DNA of 35,313 nt. It comes from Deltaproteobacteria bacterium (lineage in GTDB: Bacteria; Desulfobacterota; Syntrophia; Syntrophales; UBA2210). Position numbers and translations under genes: made by a program. The stretch spans positions 1 through 35,313 of the forward strand of contig JAFGGB010000203.1 in the NCBI GenBank assembly GCA_016930775.1, in the 5' to 3' direction. A model generated the notes under the pieces. The model did no database searches. It worked only from the letters and a program-made list of their open reading frames with translations, and was not told the DNA's origin. Below are positions 3,819-35,313 of this stretch, piece by piece; the stretch's first letter is position 1; every line of letters starts with the position of its first letter.

Positions 3819-5546
<1,728 letters not shown>

Positions 5547-7519: not shown

Positions 7520-7993
7520 ATGCCTAAGTCAAAAAAAAGATTAGACAATCAGAATCCCGATCAGCTCACCATTTTCGATATCCTGTCACAGCAAAGGAGC
7601 CTCGAACCATCTCCGGGAAGCCTCGACATCGACCGCCAGTTCAGGGAATCCGTCAGCGCGGCGCTCAAGGAATGCCCGCTCTCGCGATACCAGGTGGCGG
7701 CGCGGATGAGCGAGCTTACCGGTTTCGACATCACAAAAAGCATGCTGGACAGCTGGACCGCCGAATCGAAAGAGCAGCATCGTTTCCCGGCGATCTTCCT
7801 TCCCGCCTTTTGCGAGGCGACCGGGCGGACGACGCCCCTGGAGATGCTGGGCCAGTCGGCGAAGCTCTTTGTTATGGAAGGACCTGATGCGCTGCGGGCC
7901 GATATCCGCCGCGACGAGGAACAGATTAAGAAAATCCGGAAGAGAATCAACCGGAAGACCGCTGTCATTACCATGCTGGAGGGCATCCGATGA
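7520..7993 (+). CDS. Early hypothetical protein upstream of transposase
   Basis: This 157-aa protein precedes and overlaps the transposase gene by four bases (ATGA). The ATG at 7520 sits about five bases behind CGGGGTGA; a GTG at 7511 is in frame but lies inside that ribosome binding site. Residues about 40-115 contain a helical region (RYQVAARMSELTGFDITKSM) that reads like a helix-turn-helix or regulator fold. The C-terminus is a basic coiled-coil-like helix (EEQIKKIRKRINRKTA). Its place between ner and A is typical of small conserved genes in Mu-like phages. Function is unknown. Confidence 0.7.
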   Translation: MPKSKKRLDNQNPDQLTIFDILSQQRSLEPSPGSLDIDRQFRESVSAALKECPLSRYQVAARMSELTGFDITKSMLDSWTAESKEQHRFPAIFLPAFCEATGRTTPLEMLGQSAKLFVMEGPDALRADIRRDEEQIKKIRKRINRKTAVITMLEGIR

Positions 7994-10302
7994 ATGATAT
8001 TCTTTTTACAGTCAACGACATCTCGAATCTGCTCAATGTTTCGAAGCAGGCAATCGTCAAGCGGGCCGGGAAGGAATCCTGGACATACCGGAATGGAAAC
8101 GGCAAAGGCGGTACCCACCGATTATATTCCTTGCACGTTCTCCCCGCCGATATCCAACAGGCATATGTGGCACGAAACGAGGTGCCCCGGGACATGCTCC
8201 CGGTCATGGCGCCGGCCATACAGACCGCCTATATCGAGCAGGTTGTTTCATCAGGAAATGAAAAGAAACTGGGGGCGCTCATGGACATCGTGCCGGCCCT
8301 GTCGCCCCGGGCCATACTTGCATTTCAATCACACCAACTACCCGTCGCATCATTTAATAATAACAAAACATCCACCATCGCCGCGTGGAACGACGAGACG
8401 GCGATCAGTGAAAAGGACCTCCGGGATTCCCGGACCCGACGGATTCTCGAAATTCTCCGCGAGGCCGAGGCAGTTCCATCCGGCTGGAAAAAGCGGGCAT
8501 GGATCGAGTCGGTTGCCCTCCGTTACGACGTGACCTTCCAGTCCATTTATCGATGGATAAAGAAATATGAGAAGAAGGGGATCGCCGGTATCCGCCATAC
8601 AAAATCATCGAAGGGCAAACCGAGGGCGTGGGATCCCGAGGCCGTCGATCACTGGATCGGGCTGTGCCTCAAACGCGAACACCGCAAGATCGACCACCGG
8701 ACCCTCTATCATGATTGCCTGGTAGTCGAAGCGGCGAGGCGGGGATGGCAGATCGGCAGCTATGAATCGGCCCTCTGGTGGTACGAGAAGCGGGTGACGC
8801 CTCAGCTGCTTGCCATGCAGAAGGGCGGGATCCGCGCCCTGGACAACCTCTTGCCCCCGGTTCTTCGCAGCTATGCCGACCTGGCACCTTTTGAAATGCT
8901 CGTCGGTGATCAGCATCGTTTCGACTTCTGGGTGGTCGATGAAGACACCGGTGAGATCTTCCGGCCCGAGGGATACTTCTGGCAGGATCTCCGGACGCGG
9001 ATCATTTACGGCGGCGCCGTGGATAAAAAATATGATGCCTGGCTCATCGGCCTTGCCCTGAAGATCGGCGTTTCCATCTTCGGGGCCTTCGGTTCGATCT
9101 ATACCGACAACGGCAAGCCGGAACTCTCGCGGTATCTCATGGGGATCATGGCCGACATGGCAACCCTGGGCCTCTCCTGGTCGAGGACCACAGAAGCACC
9201 CGTCAATACCGATGACGCCGATGATGATGAGATCAATCCGCTCATGATCGTCCCAGGGACGCACAAGAAAGCCATCGTCAAGAACGCGAAGGCGAAGATG
9301 ATCGAGGGTACCTTCGACGTCGTCGAAAATATCCTCCGCAGCAAATTCAAACTTCCTGGAAATGTGAAGCGGCTTACCGATGATATTCACCACCAGGACG
9401 TGGACCAAAACGAGATCAAGGCCCTTGCCGAACAGGGGAAGCTCCCTACCTTTTCCGAGTTCACCGTCGCCCTGTACCAGGCCCTGGATTACTACAACCG
9501 GGAGAAAGCGCACCGTGGCGTACTCAAGGAATGGGCATGGAAGCCGAAGCCGAAAACCGCCACGCCCTATGACTGCCTCATGCAGTGTTACCGGTCCGGA
9601 TGGCGGCCGCGATATGTATCTCCCCATGCCGTCAGCCTGATCTTCCTGAAAAAAACAAGCCGCACCGTCCAGATGGGCCGTGTCCAGTTCGAGGGCGACT
9701 GGTACGAGCACGACGCCCTGATCGGCCTGCACAAGCAGGCGGTGGACATACGGCACGATCCGACCGAGCCGTCGGGACTGCTTATATTCAAAGATGGCAG
9801 CTACCTCTGCACCGCCATGCCCGTCACGTATTCATCAATGAAGGATATGGACCTGGCGCGCCGCAAGATCATGGAAAAGCGGGAGCGCCGGAAGCTTTTT
9901 GCTGAACAGTTCAAACGGATCACATCGAATATCCCCGACATCAGGCAATACTCCGAAGTCCCGCAAATAGAGAAGGACGCCGCCCGGTATGCCATCGAGA
10001 AACAGCAGCGCACCGAGGCGGAACGGGAGCTGTTCCGGGAACGGACGCCGGAGGAGCTGGCACAGGAAGTCCGGACGCTGGAAATGAAGGGGAGCCTGCC
10101 GGCCAGGACAAAACGACCTCTTCCCGAGCGGCCGACCTATTTCCTGGATGAAATCAGCCGGTATGAATGGTGTGTGCAATTCGAGATCGCCGGCGGGACA
10201 CTGTCAGATGAAGACGAGGAATGGAAACAAAAATATGAAGCGTCCATGTCCGATGCCAAGCGGGAATACTGGCAAATGGTGAGGGAGTACGGAGGGGTGT
10301 AA
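7990..10302 (+). CDS. A: Mu-like transposase A (DDE recombinase)
   Basis: This 770-aa protein is the strand-transfer enzyme that integrates and replicates the phage by transposition. The N-terminal ~70 residues (FTVNDISNLLNVSKQAIVKR) match the Mu DNA-binding winged helix. A helix-turn-helix near 165-200 follows (FQSIYRWIKKYEKKG). The RNase-H-like core has candidate catalytic residues Asp307 in LVGDQHRFD, Asp373 in IYTDNGKPE and Glu439 in KAKMIEGTFD. The Asp-Asp spacing of 66 is close to the 67 in MuA (D269, D336). A basic C-terminal region (LARRKIMEKRERRKLF) resembles MuA domain III, which cuts host DNA and contacts MuB. The length is somewhat greater than MuA (663 aa). It is followed by the MuB-like gene after 31 bases. 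Confidence 0.95.
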   Translation: MNDILFTVNDISNLLNVSKQAIVKRAGKESWTYRNGNGKGGTHRLYSLHVLPADIQQAYVARNEVPRDMLPVMAPAIQTAYIEQVVSSGNEKKLGALMDIVPALSPRAILAFQSHQLPVASFNNNKTSTIAAWNDETAISEKDLRDSRTRRILEILREAEAVPSGWKKRAWIESVALRYDVTFQSIYRWIKKYEKKGIAGIRHTKSSKGKPRAWDPEAVDHWIGLCLKREHRKIDHRTLYHDCLVVEAARRGWQIGSYESALWWYEKRVTPQLLAMQKGGIRALDNLLPPVLRSYADLAPFEMLVGDQHRFDFWVVDEDTGEIFRPEGYFWQDLRTRIIYGGAVDKKYDAWLIGLALKIGVSIFGAFGSIYTDNGKPELSRYLMGIMADMATLGLSWSRTTEAPVNTDDADDDEINPLMIVPGTHKKAIVKNAKAKMIEGTFDVVENILRSKFKLPGNVKRLTDDIHHQDVDQNEIKALAEQGKLPTFSEFTVALYQALDYYNREKAHRGVLKEWAWKPKPKTATPYDCLMQCYRSGWRPRYVSPHAVSLIFLKKTSRTVQMGRVQFEGDWYEHDALIGLHKQAVDIRHDPTEPSGLLIFKDGSYLCTAMPVTYSSMKDMDLARRKIMEKRERRKLFAEQFKRITSNIPDIRQYSEVPQIEKDAARYAIEKQQRTEAERELFRERTPEELAQEVRTLEMKGSLPARTKRPLPERPTYFLDEISRYEWCVQFEIAGGTLSDEDEEWKQKYEASMSDAKREYWQMVREYGGV

Positions 10303-10333: not shown

Positions 10334-11026
10334 ATGAAAAACGAATTCATCGAAACGGCAAACGTGGACAAGTTCAATGCGATCTGTGACGAGCTGACCG
10401 ACCAGGCAAGCCTGATAGGTCCTTCACTGGCAATGGTCACCGGTCCGGCGGGACGAGGCAAATCGGAAGCGGCGCGGTGGTACGCCACCCAGACCGACGC
10501 GATTTATATACCGCCGCTGAATGTCCGCTCCCCGGCAATGGTGCTCCGGGAGATCACCTTCGAGCTTTCAGCGATGAAGCCTGTCCGCAGTGAAACCTGC
10601 CTGGGAATCATCGGCGGAGAGATGGCGAAGGAGCGGCGACTGATCATCATTGACGAGGCAGATCTTCTGACCATGCAGGTCCTTGAGATGCTGCGCAACC
10701 TGAATGAGCGCTATGCCTGCCCGGTGCTTCTCATCGGTGAGGACGAGCTGAAGGGGCGCGTTGCATCGAGACGCAGGATCGCCAGCCGTATCCGTCGGCG
10801 CATGGAATTCGGCCCGGTCACACAGGCGGATGTGGGTCTGTTTTTCAAGCGTTCGCTGGACACGACACTGACGCCCGACGCGGCGGCTTTGATCCACCGG
10901 CATTCAAACGGGGACTGGCGCCCGATTCTGACCACGGCAATCGCTGTCGAGCGGGCCATGAAATCTTCGGGAGTCTCGGAGATCACGAGCGACCTGGTGA
11001 AGAATGTCATCAAAAGCAATTCCTAA
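10334..11026 (+). CDS. B: MuB-like AAA ATPase, target DNA activator
   Basis: This 230-aa AAA ATPase is expected to bind target DNA, stimulate the transposase and provide target immunity. Walker A is GPAGRGKS at 37-44 and Walker B is LIIIDEAD at 103-110. An arginine-rich segment at about 141-158 (ASRRRIASRIRRRMEF) may contact DNA. It lacks the N-terminal helix-turn-helix domain of Mu B (312 aa), as in many shorter MuB relatives. The start follows AAAGGAGAG. The stop overlaps the next gene by 23 bases. Confidence 0.9.
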   Translation: MKNEFIETANVDKFNAICDELTDQASLIGPSLAMVTGPAGRGKSEAARWYATQTDAIYIPPLNVRSPAMVLREITFELSAMKPVRSETCLGIIGGEMAKERRLIIIDEADLLTMQVLEMLRNLNERYACPVLLIGEDELKGRVASRRRIASRIRRRMEFGPVTQADVGLFFKRSLDTTLTPDAAALIHRHSNGDWRPILTTAIAVERAMKSSGVSEITSDLVKNVIKSNS

Positions 11027-27533: not shown

Positions 27534-27850
27534 CGGACCTGGAGGCCATCTTTGTCCAGGGGCTCTGCACGCCGGCGGAGCGGGCAAAATGCGAGGCTGA
27601 ATGTGGTGATAACATTGCCTGGGCCTGTGCGAACTGTCCGAAATCCCGACCGGAGGACATCGGGGAATACACCTGGAAAATTCTCCGGATTCGGAAGTTA
27701 AAGCTGGCGGGCTATCCTCTCGGGAGGAACGACCTCACGCCGGACGAATGGAACGACCTCGGAACTGCCGAGGAAATGATTTCACTTATCGAGCGGCGGG
27801 AAAACATGGCGGACGCCATACGGGTGATGCATGAACGCCAACACCGTTGA
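27506..27850 (+). CDS. Tail chaperone extension reached by -1 frameshift (GT-like)
   Basis: After the TGA at 27503-27505 the -1 frame is open to the TGA at 27848-27850. It encodes about 106 residues past the zero-frame stop: LEAIFVQGLCTPAERAKCEA, a cluster of five Cys (CTPAERAKCEAECG, CANC), then YTWKILRIRKLKLAGY and TPDEWNDLGTAEEMI. The latter part looks like a typical chaperone tail domain. No ATG, GTG or TTG begins the frame in a usable place, so a ribosomal frameshift within 27506-27533 is needed. The nearest slippery-like heptamer, C CCT TCG at 27524-27530, is not canonical. The extension overlaps the tape-measure start by 20 bases. Confidence 0.7.
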   Translation, partial: RGGDRGPFVADLEAIFVQGLCTPAERAKCEAECGDNIAWACANCPKSRPEDIGEYTWKILRIRKLKLAGYPLGRNDLTPDEWNDLGTAEEMISLIERRENMADAIRVMHERQHR

Positions 27851-30590
27851 GATCAAGGTTCAGGTCGACACACGTACCGGGACCGTCTCCATCAAACAGC
27901 TTGAAAGTCAGACGGGAAAGTCCTTCAAGCAGATGGAGAGCTCCGCGAAGTCCGCCTCGACGGGAATGAAATCATCCCTGACGTCTATCAAGGGTTCCTA
28001 TCTTGCCGTTGCCGGCGCGGCCGCAACGGCCGCCCTGGCCCTGGGGAAGGTCACCGGGCAGTATGCGCCGTTTGAAAAAGAAATGGCCAATGTATCGACC
28101 CTGGTGGACACCTCCACGGTATCGATGGAGAAGCTGGAAAAGGGGATCCTGGCGCTTCCCTCTGCCCTCGGGCCGGCCACGGAGAACACCCGCGGTTTGT
28201 ATCAGGCGCTGTCCGCTGGCGTGGAACCGGCAAAGTCCGTGGAATTCATCGGCAAGGCAGCAAAGGCTGCCAAGGCTGGTCTGAGTGACACGTTCACGGC
28301 CGTCGATACCGGTACCACCCTTCTCAATGCCTTCGGCCTGGAAACGGAAAAAGCCACCGAAGTCTATGATCTGATGTTTACCACGGTGAAAGAGGGCAAG
28401 ACGACGTTCAACGAACTGGCGGCGGCGGAGGCAAAGATATCGCCCATCGCGGCGGCGGCAAACGTCTCGATCTATGAGCAGCACGCGGCCCTGGCCACGC
28501 TCACGAAGGGCGGATTCAAGACGACCGAGGCGTCGGCAAGGCTGGCCACCGCCCTGGGGGCGATTATCAAGCCGAGCTCCGAGGCGGAAGAGACGGCGGA
28601 GCGTCTCGGCCTGAAGTTCGACGCCCAGGCGCTGGCCGCCCAGGGATTGCATGGCTTCCTGCAGGACGTCAAGGCGGCGACCGGCGGGAACATCGAAGAG
28701 ATGGCGAAGCTTTTCGGCGGCATGGAATCGCTGTCCGTCATTCTTGCCCTTACCGGTGAGCAGAGCCAGGAATTTACCGATATCTTAGGCCGGATGAAAA
28801 ACACCACTGGTGCTGTCGATGAAGCATTTGAAAAACAGAAACATACCCTGGATGCCCTCTGGAATACCTTCACGACTTCCATCGGCAAGCAGGTTATTCT
28901 GCTCGGAGATAAGTTATCGCCGAAGCTCAAGGAAGTTCTGGAGAAAACGACGGCCTGGTTAGAGGCGAACCGTGACCTGATCGCCCAGAAGACCGGCGAG
29001 CATATCGACACCATTGTATCGGCCCTGAGCCGTTTTTCAGAGAACTACGAAAATATCAAGAACATCGTCATCGAACTGGGGAAATTTTATGTGATCGCCA
29101 AGACCGTGAGCGGCCTGACGGCGGTGATCACCTTCGTCGAGGGAATGACGATCGCCACGGCGGCGCTTCAGGCGAAACAAGCGCTCCTCAACGAGACGAT
29201 GAAACAGAACCTGATAATCTTGATAGCCTATGGGGCATACAAGACCGGCGAGTACCTCACGAACTGGCAGATGGGAAACACCGATGCGGTAAAGGAAGAC
29301 ATCAAGGAATGGGAGGGAATCAAGGCGCGTCTGGAAGCGAAGCTGCGCGAGGCACAGTCGAAGGTCGAGAGCGGGCTTGAAAGGCGGACGACGTCCTCGA
29401 CGACCACTACGGACACCGCCGAAGCGGCTAAGACGAAGGCCGCCGCCGATGCTGCGGCGAAGTCGAAGATCGACGCCGCGCAGACCGCCGCAAAGAAGGA
29501 AATCGAGGCCATTATCGCCGTCGCGGGACAGGACCGCACGGCACTGCAGACCAGACTTGCCGAATATGAGCAATTTTACTCCTCGCTCCAGGCCAAGATC
29601 GCCGAGGCTGCAGAGTCGGAAAAGCGGCATATTACAGAACTCAACGCCCTCTATAAACAGAAAGCCGACCTCCAGCAATCCACGGAAGACATGGTGCGCG
29701 CCATCAAGGAACGCAGCATGTCTGAATCTGAGAGATATGCGTCCCAGGAACAGGCGCTGAACAGTGCATACACGGATGCAATGCGACTCTCGGGACAGGA
29801 GAAGATCGACGCCCTTGAAAAATACAAGCAGTCCGTCGCGTCCCTTGCAAGTACATATTCAACCGGTGTTACCGAGACCTATACGCGGTTTGGGGAAGAG
29901 AGCAAGCGGGTTATCCTTTCGGCCGAGGAGGTGGCGCAGAAGGCCGTCTCCGCCATCGAAACGGCAGCCATCGCGCAGAAAAAGGCCCTTGATGAACTGA
30001 CGACGGAGAAGCAAAAGCAGATCCGGGCGGATCGGACGTGGGGCGATATGCTGCAGTCGACTGCCCGCGATGCTGCCGCTGAAATCGAAACTCTCAAGGC
30101 GACCATCGAAAACCTCTCGGCAAGCATCGATGCCATGCAGAAACTCATCGAAATCGAAGGCGTCGACCTCGTATCGCCTGTGGTGGATTCCATCAGAAAC
30201 GAACTGGACAGCCTCCACGACAAGACAATTACGATCACCACGGTATACCGGACCGTCGGAGTCGGATCCGGCGGAGGCGAAGCAGAGGCCCTGGGGTCCT
30301 ACCAGAAGGGGACGGACTATGTGCCGAAGACCGGCCTCTATATGCTGCATGAGGGGGAAAAAGTCGTCACCAGGGACCGCACGATACGGGAAATTGCTAT
30401 GTATAACAAAATCCAGGAACGGTCCTCGGTGCGTACCGTCTCCGCCGGTCAGTCGAATACGCTCCACGTCGGATCCATCCAGATCATCGTTCCCGAGACG
30501 GCCGCGCCCCAGACGCCGGCGGACTGGCGGGCGATCGTGCGGAATCAGATCATTCCGGAACTGAGGAAGGTGGGATATGGGACTCATTAA
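27831..30590 (+). CDS. Tail tape measure protein
   Basis: This 919-aa protein sets tail length. The N-terminus is helical. The TP901-type domain spans about 60-300 (FEKEMANVSTLVDTSTVSM, then AKAAKAGLSDTFTAVDTGTT, then AAEAKISPIAAAANVSIYEQ), with KLFGGMESLSVILALTGEQ after it. A hydrophobic stretch near 415-445 may be a membrane helix used in DNA entry. A long coiled coil (about 485-780) follows, and a C-terminal part with YVPKTGLYMLHEGEKVV. At roughly 0.15 nm per residue, a rule for such proteins, the tail would be near 140 nm. It overlaps the next gene by 14 bases. Confidence 0.9.
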   Translation: MNANTVEIKVQVDTRTGTVSIKQLESQTGKSFKQMESSAKSASTGMKSSLTSIKGSYLAVAGAAATAALALGKVTGQYAPFEKEMANVSTLVDTSTVSMEKLEKGILALPSALGPATENTRGLYQALSAGVEPAKSVEFIGKAAKAAKAGLSDTFTAVDTGTTLLNAFGLETEKATEVYDLMFTTVKEGKTTFNELAAAEAKISPIAAAANVSIYEQHAALATLTKGGFKTTEASARLATALGAIIKPSSEAEETAERLGLKFDAQALAAQGLHGFLQDVKAATGGNIEEMAKLFGGMESLSVILALTGEQSQEFTDILGRMKNTTGAVDEAFEKQKHTLDALWNTFTTSIGKQVILLGDKLSPKLKEVLEKTTAWLEANRDLIAQKTGEHIDTIVSALSRFSENYENIKNIVIELGKFYVIAKTVSGLTAVITFVEGMTIATAALQAKQALLNETMKQNLIILIAYGAYKTGEYLTNWQMGNTDAVKEDIKEWEGIKARLEAKLREAQSKVESGLERRTTSSTTTTDTAEAAKTKAAADAAAKSKIDAAQTAAKKEIEAIIAVAGQDRTALQTRLAEYEQFYSSLQAKIAEAAESEKRHITELNALYKQKADLQQSTEDMVRAIKERSMSESERYASQEQALNSAYTDAMRLSGQEKIDALEKYKQSVASLASTYSTGVTETYTRFGEESKRVILSAEEVAQKAVSAIETAAIAQKKALDELTTEKQKQIRADRTWGDMLQSTARDAAAEIETLKATIENLSASIDAMQKLIEIEGVDLVSPVVDSIRNELDSLHDKTITITTVYRTVGVGSGGGEAEALGSYQKGTDYVPKTGLYMLHEGEKVVTRDRTIREIAMYNKIQERSSVRTVSAGQSNTLHVGSIQIIVPETAAPQTPADWRAIVRNQIIPELRKVGYGTH

Positions 30591-31128: not shown

Positions 31129-33765
31129 ATGAGATCCTTCAACGCAAACTTCATAACGGAGAAGAACAAGCGGGCTGACGGACCGGTCCCCGTGAATCTC
31201 CTGAAATTCAATTTCGCCACGCCCGTCTACATCTCCGACCGTGACGTGACGCCGCCGGGAGGGAACGCCCACAGCGGTCTCGTGCGCAGCTGGGGTTTTA
31301 TCGATACGTCCGTCTCCCAGACGGAGGGCGCCGGTGTCCTGGGAGTCCTGGAGATTCAGGACCTACAGCTTCGGATCATAAACTCCGAATCGCCCCGGTT
31401 CAGCGATAGCTTCACTGACGAGGATCCGCCGGAGAACGTCATCGTGGAGATGTATCAGTGGTTCGAAGGACTCCAGAACTCGGAAAAGGAAATCATCTTC
31501 AAAGGCATAATATACGGCCAGCCGGTCTATGACGAATACTACTGCGACATCACCGTCCGTGGAATCTTTCAGAAGTACAACTGGAAGATCGGCGAGGACA
31601 AAATAATCAGATCCGCCGACTATCCCGACGTGGATCCGGACGATATCGGGAAAATGCAGAACATCATCTACGGCAGCCATGAGTGCGTGCCGTGCCGCTC
31701 CGTGAAATCCGGCGCCGTCGACAGCTTGGAATCATCCATTGATGAGGATGATACATCGATCGTACTCTCTTACGCGGGTGAGTATGCCTCTTCGGGTACG
31801 GTCAAGTGCGATGAGGAGGAAATTACCTATACAGGGAAGAGCGGCAATACGCTTACCGGTTGCACCCGGGGTGCGAACGGCACGACGGCGACCTCGCACC
31901 TGGTCGGCGCGTCGATATGGCAGGAACTGGAATCGTTCGTCTACCAGGTGGCCAGTCACCCCGTGAAATCCATCGACGACGTCTATGTCGACGGCCAGCG
32001 GGTGACCTCCGTGGCCACCAGATACACCGGTCAGAGCGGAGATGAGCTTACCGGATATGAGGGGCAGGCGGTCTTTACCGTGCCCTCCCGGCTTACCCGC
32101 GCGCAGGCAATCGATCTGCTCGTCAATGATGGTATCGTCATCAATGATGGGATCGGCGTCAGCGATACCATCGGCGTTAATGATGGGATCTCTGTCAATG
32201 ACGCCATTTCGGTCGTCGATACCATCGGCGTCAGCGACGGCATCAGTATTTCGGATCTGATCAGTGTCCTGGATACAATCGGTGTGTCTGACGGAATATC
32301 TGTATCCGACAACATCGGTGTTTCCACGACCGCCACGACAAAGAGCATTTACCCGAGCGGTTCACTGGGTCAGACGGGACATGCGAATATTATTGACGGA
32401 TCGAGCAATACCTACTGCGAACTCGATGCCGGCCAGAGCTGCAGGGCCAACTTTCCGTCAACGAACTACGGCACGATAGTAAAACAGCACATACACTTCA
32501 TTGCCGGCGGTGTCGGCCTTGACACTATCGGGATTACCTATGGGATGGGCTGGTCTCCCACGTCCATCGAGGCCGGGGATATCTCTGAGTATCGCGTGTC
32601 GAAGGATGGCGGCAACTGGGATGATTACATCATATTTAATGCGCCGACCGGCGTCAACGACCGCCGCATCTTCGAGGTGCTCCGAAAAGAGGTGGAATAC
32701 ATCCCCACTGTTACGAAGACCGGATCCGCCTCGAAGTCCGGCACCGTCTCAAAGACCGGGGCCGCTTCCAAGTCGGGGAGCGTGAGCAAGTCCGGTACCG
32801 TCTCAAAGACCGGGGCCGCCTCAAAGTCGGGGAGCGTGACCAGGTCCGGCAACGTCACCAAAACGGGTGCCGCCGCCAAGTCCGGAACGGTGACGCGATC
32901 GGGTGCGGTGACACTGACCGGCAATTCCGTCGCCGACGTTCGCGTCGGGAAACTGGTCACCGTTGACGTTGACGGCTATCGGGACGACGACGCCGGGACC
33001 TATACCGGCACGCCCTATGCGCTGATCGAGCGTCCCGATCATGTCTTCAAACATATATGGTGCGTGCTCCTGGAGGCCCCTTCGGGGTACATCGATGCGG
33101 CGACGTTCGCGGCAGCCGGAACATTCTATAATACTCATTCCTATGCCTTCTCCATTCTCATTGATGAGCCGGTTCAGGCCGAGGGTCTGCTCATGCGCCT
33201 GGCGCTGCAGTGCCGGTCCCGGTTTGTCGTGACGGCATACGGCACCGTGAAACTGGTTGTCCGGCAACTTTCGCAGTCCAGCGGCCATTCCATCTCGAAA
33301 AACGAGATCATGTGTGACTCGATATCCGTGCGGCGGAGTGCGACGACCGATCTGATCAACTATTTCAACGTCTATTACGACCCGGACCGCACACAGTCGC
33401 GCTATGACCCCGGATCGTATCTGGGATGCTTGGAATGTACCGATGCCACCTCGATTACGCGATATGGACGCCGTGACTGGTCCGGATCTGAGGACGTCTT
33501 CTGTTTCGACGCGGTGCGATCGGAGGCAATGGCGGAGCATGTGGCTGCCTTTCTGCTTGAGTATCATGCGGCCGTGAGGCGGATGCCCTGCTTTTCGGTG
33601 TTCCTGGACAATATGGAAATAGAACCGGCCGACGTCATTGACGTAACGCATCCGCTCGATTCCATGTCGGGATTCACGGCGGATGTGATCAAAACGATCC
33701 ATCATCCCGGCTCGGCCAGGCAGGACACGATAGACCATGTAGAAGTTGTAACGGTGGAAAACTGA
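31129..33765 (+). CDS. Tail tip/hub protein with two hexapeptide arrays
   Basis: This 878-aa protein follows the distal tail protein. The N-terminal ~170 residues are beta-rich and hub-like (VPVNLLKFNFATPVYISDRD, GVLGVLEIQDLQLRIIN). Residues 195-265 contain a small domain with GNTLTGCTRGANGTTATSH, a motif common in tail tip and fibre proteins. Two tandem hexapeptide arrays follow (residues about 332-399 and 530-595), separated by a ~130-residue lectin-like segment (CELDAGQSCRANFPS). The C-terminal 270 residues contain a hub-like region (VRRSATTDLINYFNVYYDPD, YHAAVRRMPCFSVFLDN). It probably forms the central tip that contacts the host surface or feeds DNA through. Its stop overlaps the next ATG. 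Confidence 0.8.
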   Translation: MRSFNANFITEKNKRADGPVPVNLLKFNFATPVYISDRDVTPPGGNAHSGLVRSWGFIDTSVSQTEGAGVLGVLEIQDLQLRIINSESPRFSDSFTDEDPPENVIVEMYQWFEGLQNSEKEIIFKGIIYGQPVYDEYYCDITVRGIFQKYNWKIGEDKIIRSADYPDVDPDDIGKMQNIIYGSHECVPCRSVKSGAVDSLESSIDEDDTSIVLSYAGEYASSGTVKCDEEEITYTGKSGNTLTGCTRGANGTTATSHLVGASIWQELESFVYQVASHPVKSIDDVYVDGQRVTSVATRYTGQSGDELTGYEGQAVFTVPSRLTRAQAIDLLVNDGIVINDGIGVSDTIGVNDGISVNDAISVVDTIGVSDGISISDLISVLDTIGVSDGISVSDNIGVSTTATTKSIYPSGSLGQTGHANIIDGSSNTYCELDAGQSCRANFPSTNYGTIVKQHIHFIAGGVGLDTIGITYGMGWSPTSIEAGDISEYRVSKDGGNWDDYIIFNAPTGVNDRRIFEVLRKEVEYIPTVTKTGSASKSGTVSKTGAASKSGSVSKSGTVSKTGAASKSGSVTRSGNVTKTGAAAKSGTVTRSGAVTLTGNSVADVRVGKLVTVDVDGYRDDDAGTYTGTPYALIERPDHVFKHIWCVLLEAPSGYIDAATFAAAGTFYNTHSYAFSILIDEPVQAEGLLMRLALQCRSRFVVTAYGTVKLVVRQLSQSSGHSISKNEIMCDSISVRRSATTDLINYFNVYYDPDRTQSRYDPGSYLGCLECTDATSITRYGRRDWSGSEDVFCFDAVRSEAMAEHVAAFLLEYHAAVRRMPCFSVFLDNMEIEPADVIDVTHPLDSMSGFTADVIKTIHHPGSARQDTIDHVEVVTVEN
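32122..32325 (+). repeat. Eleven V-(N/S)-D-(G/T)-I-(G/S) hexapeptide repeats
   Basis: The hub protein carries eleven consecutive six-residue units such as VSDTIG, VNDGIS, VSDGIS and VLDTIG. Valine or isoleucine at positions one and five alternates with small or acidic residues. This periodic pattern favours a beta-solenoid or fibrous stalk. DNA-level identity between units is partial, so the array is selected at protein level. Confidence 0.9.
32716..32913 (+). repeat. Eleven (K/R)-(S/T)-G-X-(A/V)-(S/T) hexapeptide repeats
   Basis: Units include KTGSAS, KSGTVS, KTGAAS, KSGSVS and RSGNVT, eleven in all, followed by LTGNS. They are rich in Gly, Ser, Thr and Lys and lack large side chains, unlike the first array. 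A 54-base block (KSGTVS KTGAAS KSGSVS) is repeated nearly exactly at 32734-32787 and 32788-32841, a sign of recent duplication. Confidence 0.9.
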
Positions 33766-34100
33766 TGACTGAGAAGACCATACCGACTGAATGCAAGACC
33801 GATCTGGAAAAGACCGAATACTGGACCAGGGCGCAGGAGCTGCTCCGGCTGGAACACAATGAGATGGGAGTGCAGTTCCGAGATGGCAAGATTACAAAGA
33901 AAGAGTGGGAGAAATACCGGAAAGAGTCGTTTCTTCCGCGAAGCAAGAAGATTCACAAGGAATTAAATGAATCGAGGGCGTCCCTGCGGAACGAGGCCGC
34001 GAAAGAAGATGAATCACCGTGGACTTACGATAAGGAAGCCCTCAAAGAATCCACAAAATGGTCCCCTGATATAAGCGAAGAGGCATTACTCAATGGCTGA
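33765..34100 (+). CDS. Charged hypothetical protein in the tail region
   Basis: This 111-aa protein is rich in Lys and Glu and predicted helical (YWTRAQELLRLEHNEMGVQF, then GKITKKEWEKYRKESFLPRS). It overlaps the hub stop by one base and the fibre start by eight. Such small charged proteins near fibre genes can be fibre chaperones or adaptors, but nothing proves this here. Confidence 0.65.
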   Translation: MTEKTIPTECKTDLEKTEYWTRAQELLRLEHNEMGVQFRDGKITKKEWEKYRKESFLPRSKKIHKELNESRASLRNEAAKEDESPWTYDKEALKESTKWSPDISEEALLNG

Positions 34101-35313
34101 GGACTTTACTACATACACAGAAGTTGATCCTGATAGTCATATCAGTGTTGATTCGGCATCAAAAATCACCCTCGCTGGTCTTGCAAGAGATGAAGAAGCC
34201 TATGTTTATAAGGATCATGGCACTGCTCATTTTGATGGTGATTTTGAACACCTCATTGACTATGCCTTTACTTCAGGCACTTCCGATAACGCCATGCTCT
34301 ATATAGCCGTCTTATCTAATATTGTAGCAACCGTGCCGGACATACATTCTGCTGCAGGCGATTTTGTGGGAATACGATGTTTTTATGACGTAGATATGCC
34401 AAGACCTCTTTGGTCGATATACGAAGGTCATTCTGGTGGTTTGTATTATGACTATTACGGACAAAGTGGATACTCACTGGGAAGCACAATATATTTCACG
34501 CTTGAACGCGATGAAAGCGTTGGAACGTATGGCACAATGTATTGTTATATTTACAGTGATGCTGATAGGACATCTTTACTCGACACTCTCTCACTGAGCC
34601 TTCATGTAAAAGCAGATTTTAAATATGCATTCCCGTTAAACAATTCGGATAATGGTAATTCCGGTCAATATATCTATGGTACAATAGAAAGTTATGACCT
34701 CCAGGAGGGGGCGTTAATTGAATTATCAAGTGCCCTCTCCGGTGCAAGCCAGGTGGCGGACATCGGCTTGGCTGTATGCCGTGAGTTTTCCTCGCAGATC
34801 AACGCCGAAAGTTCTCTGGGCGACATCGATCTACTCAAGATGCTGCGCTTCCTTTCCTCCCTACCCGGAATCAGCAGTACATCGGATACGGTCTTGGCCA
34901 TCGGCCGCGCTTTGGCATCCGTTATCGCGGCTGCTTCCCTGACCGCCGATATTTCATTAGCCATTGCCCGTCTCCTCGCATCCACCGTTTCAGCTGACTC
35001 ACAAACACGCGATGCCTCCCTGGCAATTCTCCGGAGCGTATCCTCGCAGATCGACGCCGGCAGTTCCCTGGGCGACATTGATCTTCTGAAGACGTTGAAT
35101 TACGCCTCGGCACTGGCCGGGACAAGCCTTATCTCGGATATCCCCCTCAGCATTGATCGAAGCCTGGCCTCCGCCATTACAGCAGATTCACAGTCTGCTG
35201 ATGTTGGCCTCGCTATCCTCCGGGAGATTGCCTCAAAGATCGATGCAGGAACGTCTCTCACTGATGTCGAACTCGTGCGGCTCATGAGTCTCTGGTCGAC
35301 GCTGGTTGCCGGA
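34093..35313 (+). CDS. Tail fibre-like protein, partial at window end
   Basis: The frame opens at ATG 34093, overlapping the previous stop by eight bases, and runs to the last base without a stop: 407 residues seen. Residues 1-220 look like a beta-sandwich lectin-like domain: FTTYTEVDPDSHISVDSASK, YVYKDHGTAHFDGDFEHLID, many Tyr and Ser residues, and FVGIRCFYDVD. From residue 222 a tandem array of 21-residue units begins. The first ~640 bases are visibly AT-rich compared with the array and the upstream tail genes, which suggests exchange of the receptor-binding or decoration domain. The role is inferred from position and composition. Confidence 0.65.
   Translation, partial: MAEDFTTYTEVDPDSHISVDSASKITLAGLARDEEAYVYKDHGTAHFDGDFEHLIDYAFTSGTSDNAMLYIAVLSNIVATVPDIHSAAGDFVGIRCFYDVDMPRPLWSIYEGHSGGLYYDYYGQSGYSLGSTIYFTLERDESVGTYGTMYCYIYSDADRTSLLDTLSLSLHVKADFKYAFPLNNSDNGNSGQYIYGTIESYDLQEGALIELSSALSGASQVADIGLAVCREFSSQINAESSLGDIDLLKMLRFLSSLPGISSTSDTVLAIGRALASVIAAASLTADISLAIARLLASTVSADSQTRDASLAILRSVSSQIDAGSSLGDIDLLKTLNYASALAGTSLISDIPLSIDRSLASAITADSQSADVGLAILREIASKIDAGTSLTDVELVRLMSLWSTLVAG
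34756..35313 (+). repeat. 21-residue (63-bp) tandem repeats in the fibre gene
   Basis: Eight full units and a truncated ninth are in register every 63 bases. The consensus is roughly x-D-x-x-L-A-I-x-R-x-L-A-S-x-I-x-A-x-S-x-x. Examples are ADIGLAVCREFSSQIN, ADISLAIARLLASTVS and ADVGLAILREIASKID at unit starts. Units 1, 5 and 8 resemble each other, as do 2, 6 and 9, so there is a higher-order pattern. The array continues beyond the window. Confidence 0.9.

Follow-up and report, generated by a model that had tools for sequence, protein, structure and literature searches.

The gene that runs into the right-hand end of the window (the whole stretch of DNA analysed, a complete contig of 35,313 bases and one of 231 in its draft genome) probably encodes a tail-tip adhesin of a Mu-like prophage, in which a lectin-fold domain, putatively sugar-binding, is joined to a beta-rich, interchangeable repeat stalk. 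The positions of the gene, of its two parts and of the prophage genes upstream are collected in Table 1.

Table 1. Positions of the repeat gene, its parts and the prophage genes upstream, counted from the first base of the window
Feature	Position	Strand	Basis or remark
Mu-type transposase A	7990..10302	+	Pfam Mu-transpos_C E 1e-11, DDE_2
AAA ATPase, MuB/TniB type	10334-11026		Pfam/PHROGs
Tail tape measure protein	27831..30590	+	Pfam PhageMin_Tail E 2e-27; PHROG tape measure E 3e-45
Hub-like tail-tip protein, 878 aa	31129..33765	+	Weak Pfam/PHROG families; homologue in L040
Small ORF, 111 aa	33765..34100	+	Overlaps start of the repeat gene by 8 bases
Gene with lectin fold and 21-residue repeat	34093..35313	+	Frame open from ATG 34093; 407 codons present; 3′ end cut by contig end
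N-terminal ConA-like jelly-roll (lectin/glucanase fold) domain	34099..34731	+	~205 residues; IMG/VR relatives, alignment, AlphaFold, PDB matches
Possible degenerate unit 0 (SYDLQEGALIELSSALSGASQ)	34690..34752	+	In register; overlaps end of the lectin-fold domain
Array of 21-residue units, nine units of 63 bases	34753..35313	+	Unit 9 cut at contig end

A 21-residue repeat in 63-base register

From position 34753 the gene product consists of 21-residue units with zero indels, which hold the 63-base register to the end of the contig. The units are, in order, VADIGLAVCREFSSQINAESS, LGDIDLLKMLRFLSSLPGISS, TSDTVLAIGRALASVIAAASL, TADISLAIARLLASTVSADSQ, TRDASLAILRSVSSQIDAGSS, LGDIDLLKTLNYASALAGTSL, ISDIPLSIDRSLASAITADSQ, SADVGLAILREIASKIDAGTS and LTDVELVRLMSLWSTLVAG, the last with 19 of its 21 residues present before the contig ends. 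Compared with 2000 shuffles of the same residues, the similarity of the array to itself has z scores of 10.4, 8.7, 11.6 and 12.9 at lags of 21, 42, 63 and 84, and the top shuffle falls far under the observed value at all four lags. The nine units in strict register reported in the preliminary description are thereby confirmed. These may be preceded by a degenerate unit 0, which shares 5-6 of 21 residues, in register, with each unit of the array. The 3′ end of the gene, which the preliminary description sought, was not recovered, as the array matches none of the other contigs of the assembly in DNA or protein; the repeat count that it also called for is therefore at least nine.

Asp3, Leu6 and Ser14 are invariant in 9 of 9 units, and the units fall into two types: type A (units 1, 3, 4, 5, 7 and 8) has Arg at position 10 and type B (units 2, 6 and 9) does not. 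A block duplication had been proposed from the similarity of units 1, 5 and 8 and of units 2, 6 and 9. The proposal stands for units 1/5/8 (52-57% identical) and for units 2/6 (61%), and is weaker for unit 9, which is only 26% identical to units 2 and 6. We also observe a third similar group, units 3/4/7 (52-57% identical), that had gone unmentioned.

At the DNA level the identity at lag 63 is only ~39%, too low for Tandem Repeats Finder to report the array with the default threshold. Between similar units, the fraction of identical bases is 0.53-0.67 at codon position 1, 0.64-0.75 at position 2 and 0.38-0.44 at position 3, and residues that are identical mostly use different codons. Third positions are thus nearly saturated, a pattern which indicates that the protein is what is kept; the array reads as old and conserved at the protein level, not as the product of recent slippage. 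Units as diverged as these also make an assembly artefact unlikely.

The repeat had not been recognised in the preliminary description, and our searches agree: it has no match in Pfam, PHROGs, NCBIfam or PDB sequences, and nothing on it was found in the literature on 21-residue phage repeats, on lectin-domain tail proteins with repeats or on helical fibre repeats. Against PHROGs the whole protein has no significant match (best E 0.024, to a family of unknown function), and tblastn with it finds no match in phage and plasmid records. Searching IMG/VR with the array itself returned no close relatives. A scan of IMG/VR with a two-unit DNA pattern found exactly one other array, and a second, different pattern agrees. 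This locus, L063 (IMGVR_UViG_3300028837_001857, 1092-2789), encodes a protein of 566 aa with ~17 units, types A and B interspersed; it has no match in phage records. A profile built from the window units only matches L063 at E 2e-54, whereas among 2000 shuffled versions of L063 the lowest E is 0.08; the aligned arrays are 36% identical. A colinear order of units between the two arrays was considered and is unproven (permutation p 0.49); with no colinearity beyond chance, the window and L063 share a unit type and not a demonstrable block. Neither protein has a Pfam family at E <= 1, fibre-repeat models included, which speaks against membership in the fibre-repeat families listed there. Across 155 genomes of the same class and 395 of the same phylum, the repeat profile matches only the window and L068, a TauE-like membrane protein that we regard as a chance match.

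The lectin-fold domain and its tail-tip neighbourhood

The array is preceded by a domain with the conserved motifs HFDGDFEH and DLQE. This domain likewise has no match in Pfam, PHROG, NCBIfam or PDB sequences; its fold is predicted by AlphaFold with high confidence (residues 1-208, pLDDT mostly 92-98) as a two-sheet beta jelly roll of ~200 residues. A PDB structure search, in which the matches are filled by the N-terminal domain and not by the array, places the domain among ConA-like lectins and glucanases, with a best Z of 15.2 over 176 aligned residues at rmsd 3.1. Sequence identity to the matched chains is 5-12%, and at identities of ~10% the predicted fold can be taken as established, whereas function cannot be transferred. 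One of the matches (5ly8, Z 14.0, 179 residues, rmsd 3.4) is the module of the evolved Dit protein of phage J-1, and evolved Dits carrying such carbohydrate-binding modules bind the host cell (PMC7291167). The two are alike in fold and in presumed place at the tail tip. However, the J-1 module is inserted in Dit, belongs to phages of Gram-positive bacteria and is 5% identical to the domain described here, which instead stands at the N-terminus of a protein of its own, ahead of a repeat tail.

On its gene content the element is a Mu-like prophage, as it carries a transposase A gene, an ATPase gene of MuB/TniB type and a tape measure gene. Between the tape measure gene and the repeat gene lie a 122-aa ORF, the 878-aa hub-like protein and the 111-aa ORF. 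In L040 (2046-5543), a homologue of the hub-like protein, detected over two stretches (E 2e-21 and 3e-16), is fused to the lectin-fold domain. In many relatives, including L056, L062, L017, L049, L003, L039, L009, L034 and L054, the lectin-fold gene is immediately preceded by a homologue of the 111-aa ORF. We infer that the hub, the small protein and the lectin-fold protein form one adhesion module. In L063, the gene that follows the repeat gene belongs to the Pfam Gp80 fibre family (E 9e-72); PHROGs labels it a head protein. The position behind the tape measure and hub-like genes, the L040 fusion and the Gp80 neighbour of L063 all support the earlier assignment to a tail-fibre type of gene. 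Given the gene order, we consider "tail-tip gene" the better term, with "tail fibre" plausible.

Other repeats and genes were observed in and around this neighbourhood. The hub-like gene holds an array of 18-base units in a 54-base period at 32716-32882 (TKSGTVSKTGAASKSGSV, 85% matches at 54), where a collagen-like adhesin of NCBIfam matches weakly, and another of ~10-residue units at about 32120-32350 (NDGIGVSDTIGVNDGISVNDAISV) that alternates strictly by eye. Two adjoining tail-tip genes therefore hold three different repeat arrays. The L040 fusion, of 1166 residues, has further short repeats (CITAGVDPGVILGSIITTPAPASCITNRVNPTIVIG) between its hub homologue and its lectin-fold domain. On the - strand to the left of the transposase, two ORFs stand out by eye: one at 400-2130 resembles a coiled-coil ATPase, and one at 3819-5546 has a DPPF motif and resembles a DNA methyltransferase. 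They are possibly cargo or a flanking defence island.

Separate distribution of domain and array

The N-terminal domain has relatives at 53 IMG/VR loci. Among the same-phylum genomes it occurs in 2 of 395 besides the window's own, and in GTDB genomes it was found only on one contig of a Chlamydiae MAG. That contig (L062, JAAKFN010000050.1), binned as a Candidatus Anoxychlamydiales MAG, encodes the domain with a Ser/Cys-rich tail and may be a phage contig.

What follows the domain was surveyed in 49 distinct loci, the window included, with a tandem array counted as significant at z > 5. At least 80 residues follow the domain in 28 of the 49, and 15 of these 28 contain a significant tandem array, with periods of 14, 15, 18, 20 (seven loci), 21, 22 and 23; a single period of 29 is probably twice 14-15. 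Little or nothing follows the domain in the other 21 loci, a few of which are explained by a contig end. Low-complexity tails were also seen behind the domain: Pro-Ser in L034, Thr-rich in L046 and L050, and poly-Ser in L054 and L062.

The arrays of the other domain-bearing loci are not detected by the profile of the window repeat. Six loci (L006, L009, L027, L031, L048 and L049) have a homologous N-terminal domain and the same gene position, yet carry 20-residue arrays whose sequences are not detectably related to that of the window. In turn, the N-terminus of L063 differs from that of the window and is without a lectin-fold match, and its array stops near a short C-terminal tail. As the same domain occurs with other arrays and the same array with another N-terminus, the two are separable modules, and repeat arrays appear to be exchangeable between phage proteins.

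Fold and role of the array

The preliminary description suggested helical repeats or a coiled fibre, a reading that is weakened by the spacing of the conserved residues. With the register of the units fixed by the 63-base period, and so independent of any structure, conservation within positions 4-20 is highest at the eight positions 4, 6, 8, 10, 14, 16, 18 and 20, all of them even (p 0.0014). Mean conservation differs between even and odd positions of the window units with p 0.00025, or 0.034 if the segment is freely chosen, and the L063 units alternate in the same phase with p 0.0001; all these p-values are optimistic, the units being related by duplication. Alternation over 17 residues is the pattern of a beta-strand with one packed face and favours beta over helix. 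Hydrophobicity itself has no 180-degree peak, since Arg10 and Ser14 sit on the conserved face. Alternation is not significant in the arrays that follow the domain in L006, L027, L048 and L049, and is thus not a general property of these proteins.

If the array were helical, it would be built of short alpha-helices, one per unit and capped at the N-terminus by Asp3, in an alpha-solenoid or a coiled stalk. AlphaFold indeed draws a helix of ~13-20 residues in nearly every unit of the window and one per unit in L063, the Asp, Ser or Thr that precedes each putative helix could serve as its N-cap, and Ala, Leu, Arg and Glu are common in the array. However, the confidence of these models is low (pLDDT 47-80 over the window array, where the alignment has hardly any depth; ~35 for L063, a model too poor for use). 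The conserved positions lack the 3-4 residue spacing of a helical face: plotted at 100 degrees per residue they are spread all round the helix (resultant 0.13, p 0.79), but fall on one face of a strand. In L063, Pro at 11 and Gly at 13 would fall mid-helix. Chou-Fasman propensities for helix and strand are equal in the array. Altogether we regard the helical fold as unlikely, and put a beta fold at roughly twice its odds.

Beta-structured viral shafts such as the adenovirus triple beta-spiral and the beta-helices of T4 gp5 and gp12 are built from short repeats, each with a turn and with conserved residues in alternation. The window repeat resembles them in its short units and their alternation, and would do so in the turn as well; it differs in its length of 21 residues, compared with about 15, and in that the protein has no Adeno_shaft, Phage_fiber or other fibre-repeat Pfam match.

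In the adhesin that we favour, the lectin-fold domain would be attached at the tail tip along with the products of the two genes before it, the hub-like and the small protein, and would probably bind a cell-surface sugar. The array would extend from the domain as a stalk or skirt. In each unit ~17 residues would form beta-strand, packed by a single conserved face, and the chain would turn around Asp3; the copy number would set the length or the avidity of the array. The roles of the two parts could also be reversed, with the lectin-fold domain as the anchor and the array as the part that binds the receptor, through a low-affinity surface on each unit. The L063, L006-type and L017-type arrays do reach or nearly reach the C-terminus with no obvious distal head, and arrays vary while the N-terminal domain stays, as receptor-binding parts do. 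We nevertheless think this reversal improbable, as the variable face, made up of the odd positions, is small and polar and lacks a conserved surface pocket, and the binder that suggests itself first is the lectin fold. Slightly less probable again is a flexible, largely disordered spacer that arose by unequal crossing-over under little structural selection: the richness of the array in Ser, Ala and Thr, the middling AlphaFold confidence and the plainly low-complexity tails of L054, L062, L046, L050 and L034 would fit it, but Leu6, Ser14 and Asp3 are fixed in nine units though synonymous sites are near saturation, and conserved hydrophobic columns (4, 6, 12 and 16) are unusual for a disordered protein.

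Adhesion parts built of repeats and joined to lectin modules are a familiar kind of protein. The repeat itself is unlisted in the libraries searched (Pfam, PHROGs, NCBIfam and PDB), while the protein as a whole most likely belongs to this familiar kind. More tentatively, the repeat could represent an undescribed beta fibre fold, with the domain and the small ORF serving as a conserved socket for interchangeable stalks of nearly constant, ~20-residue period in unrelated phages; we hold this broader reading to be possible and clearly less likely than the adhesin itself.

Tail-tip adhesins determine which cells a phage enters, and most of those known come from phages in culture. The lectin-fold domain described here is conserved in dozens of uncultured phages but absent from the family libraries searched, and it is coupled to exchangeable arrays, one of them built from the 21-residue repeat. 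If the arrays are stalks, they would be natural examples of a changed reach with an unchanged binding head, and the 21-residue repeat would add a small new unit to those from which fibrous proteins are built.
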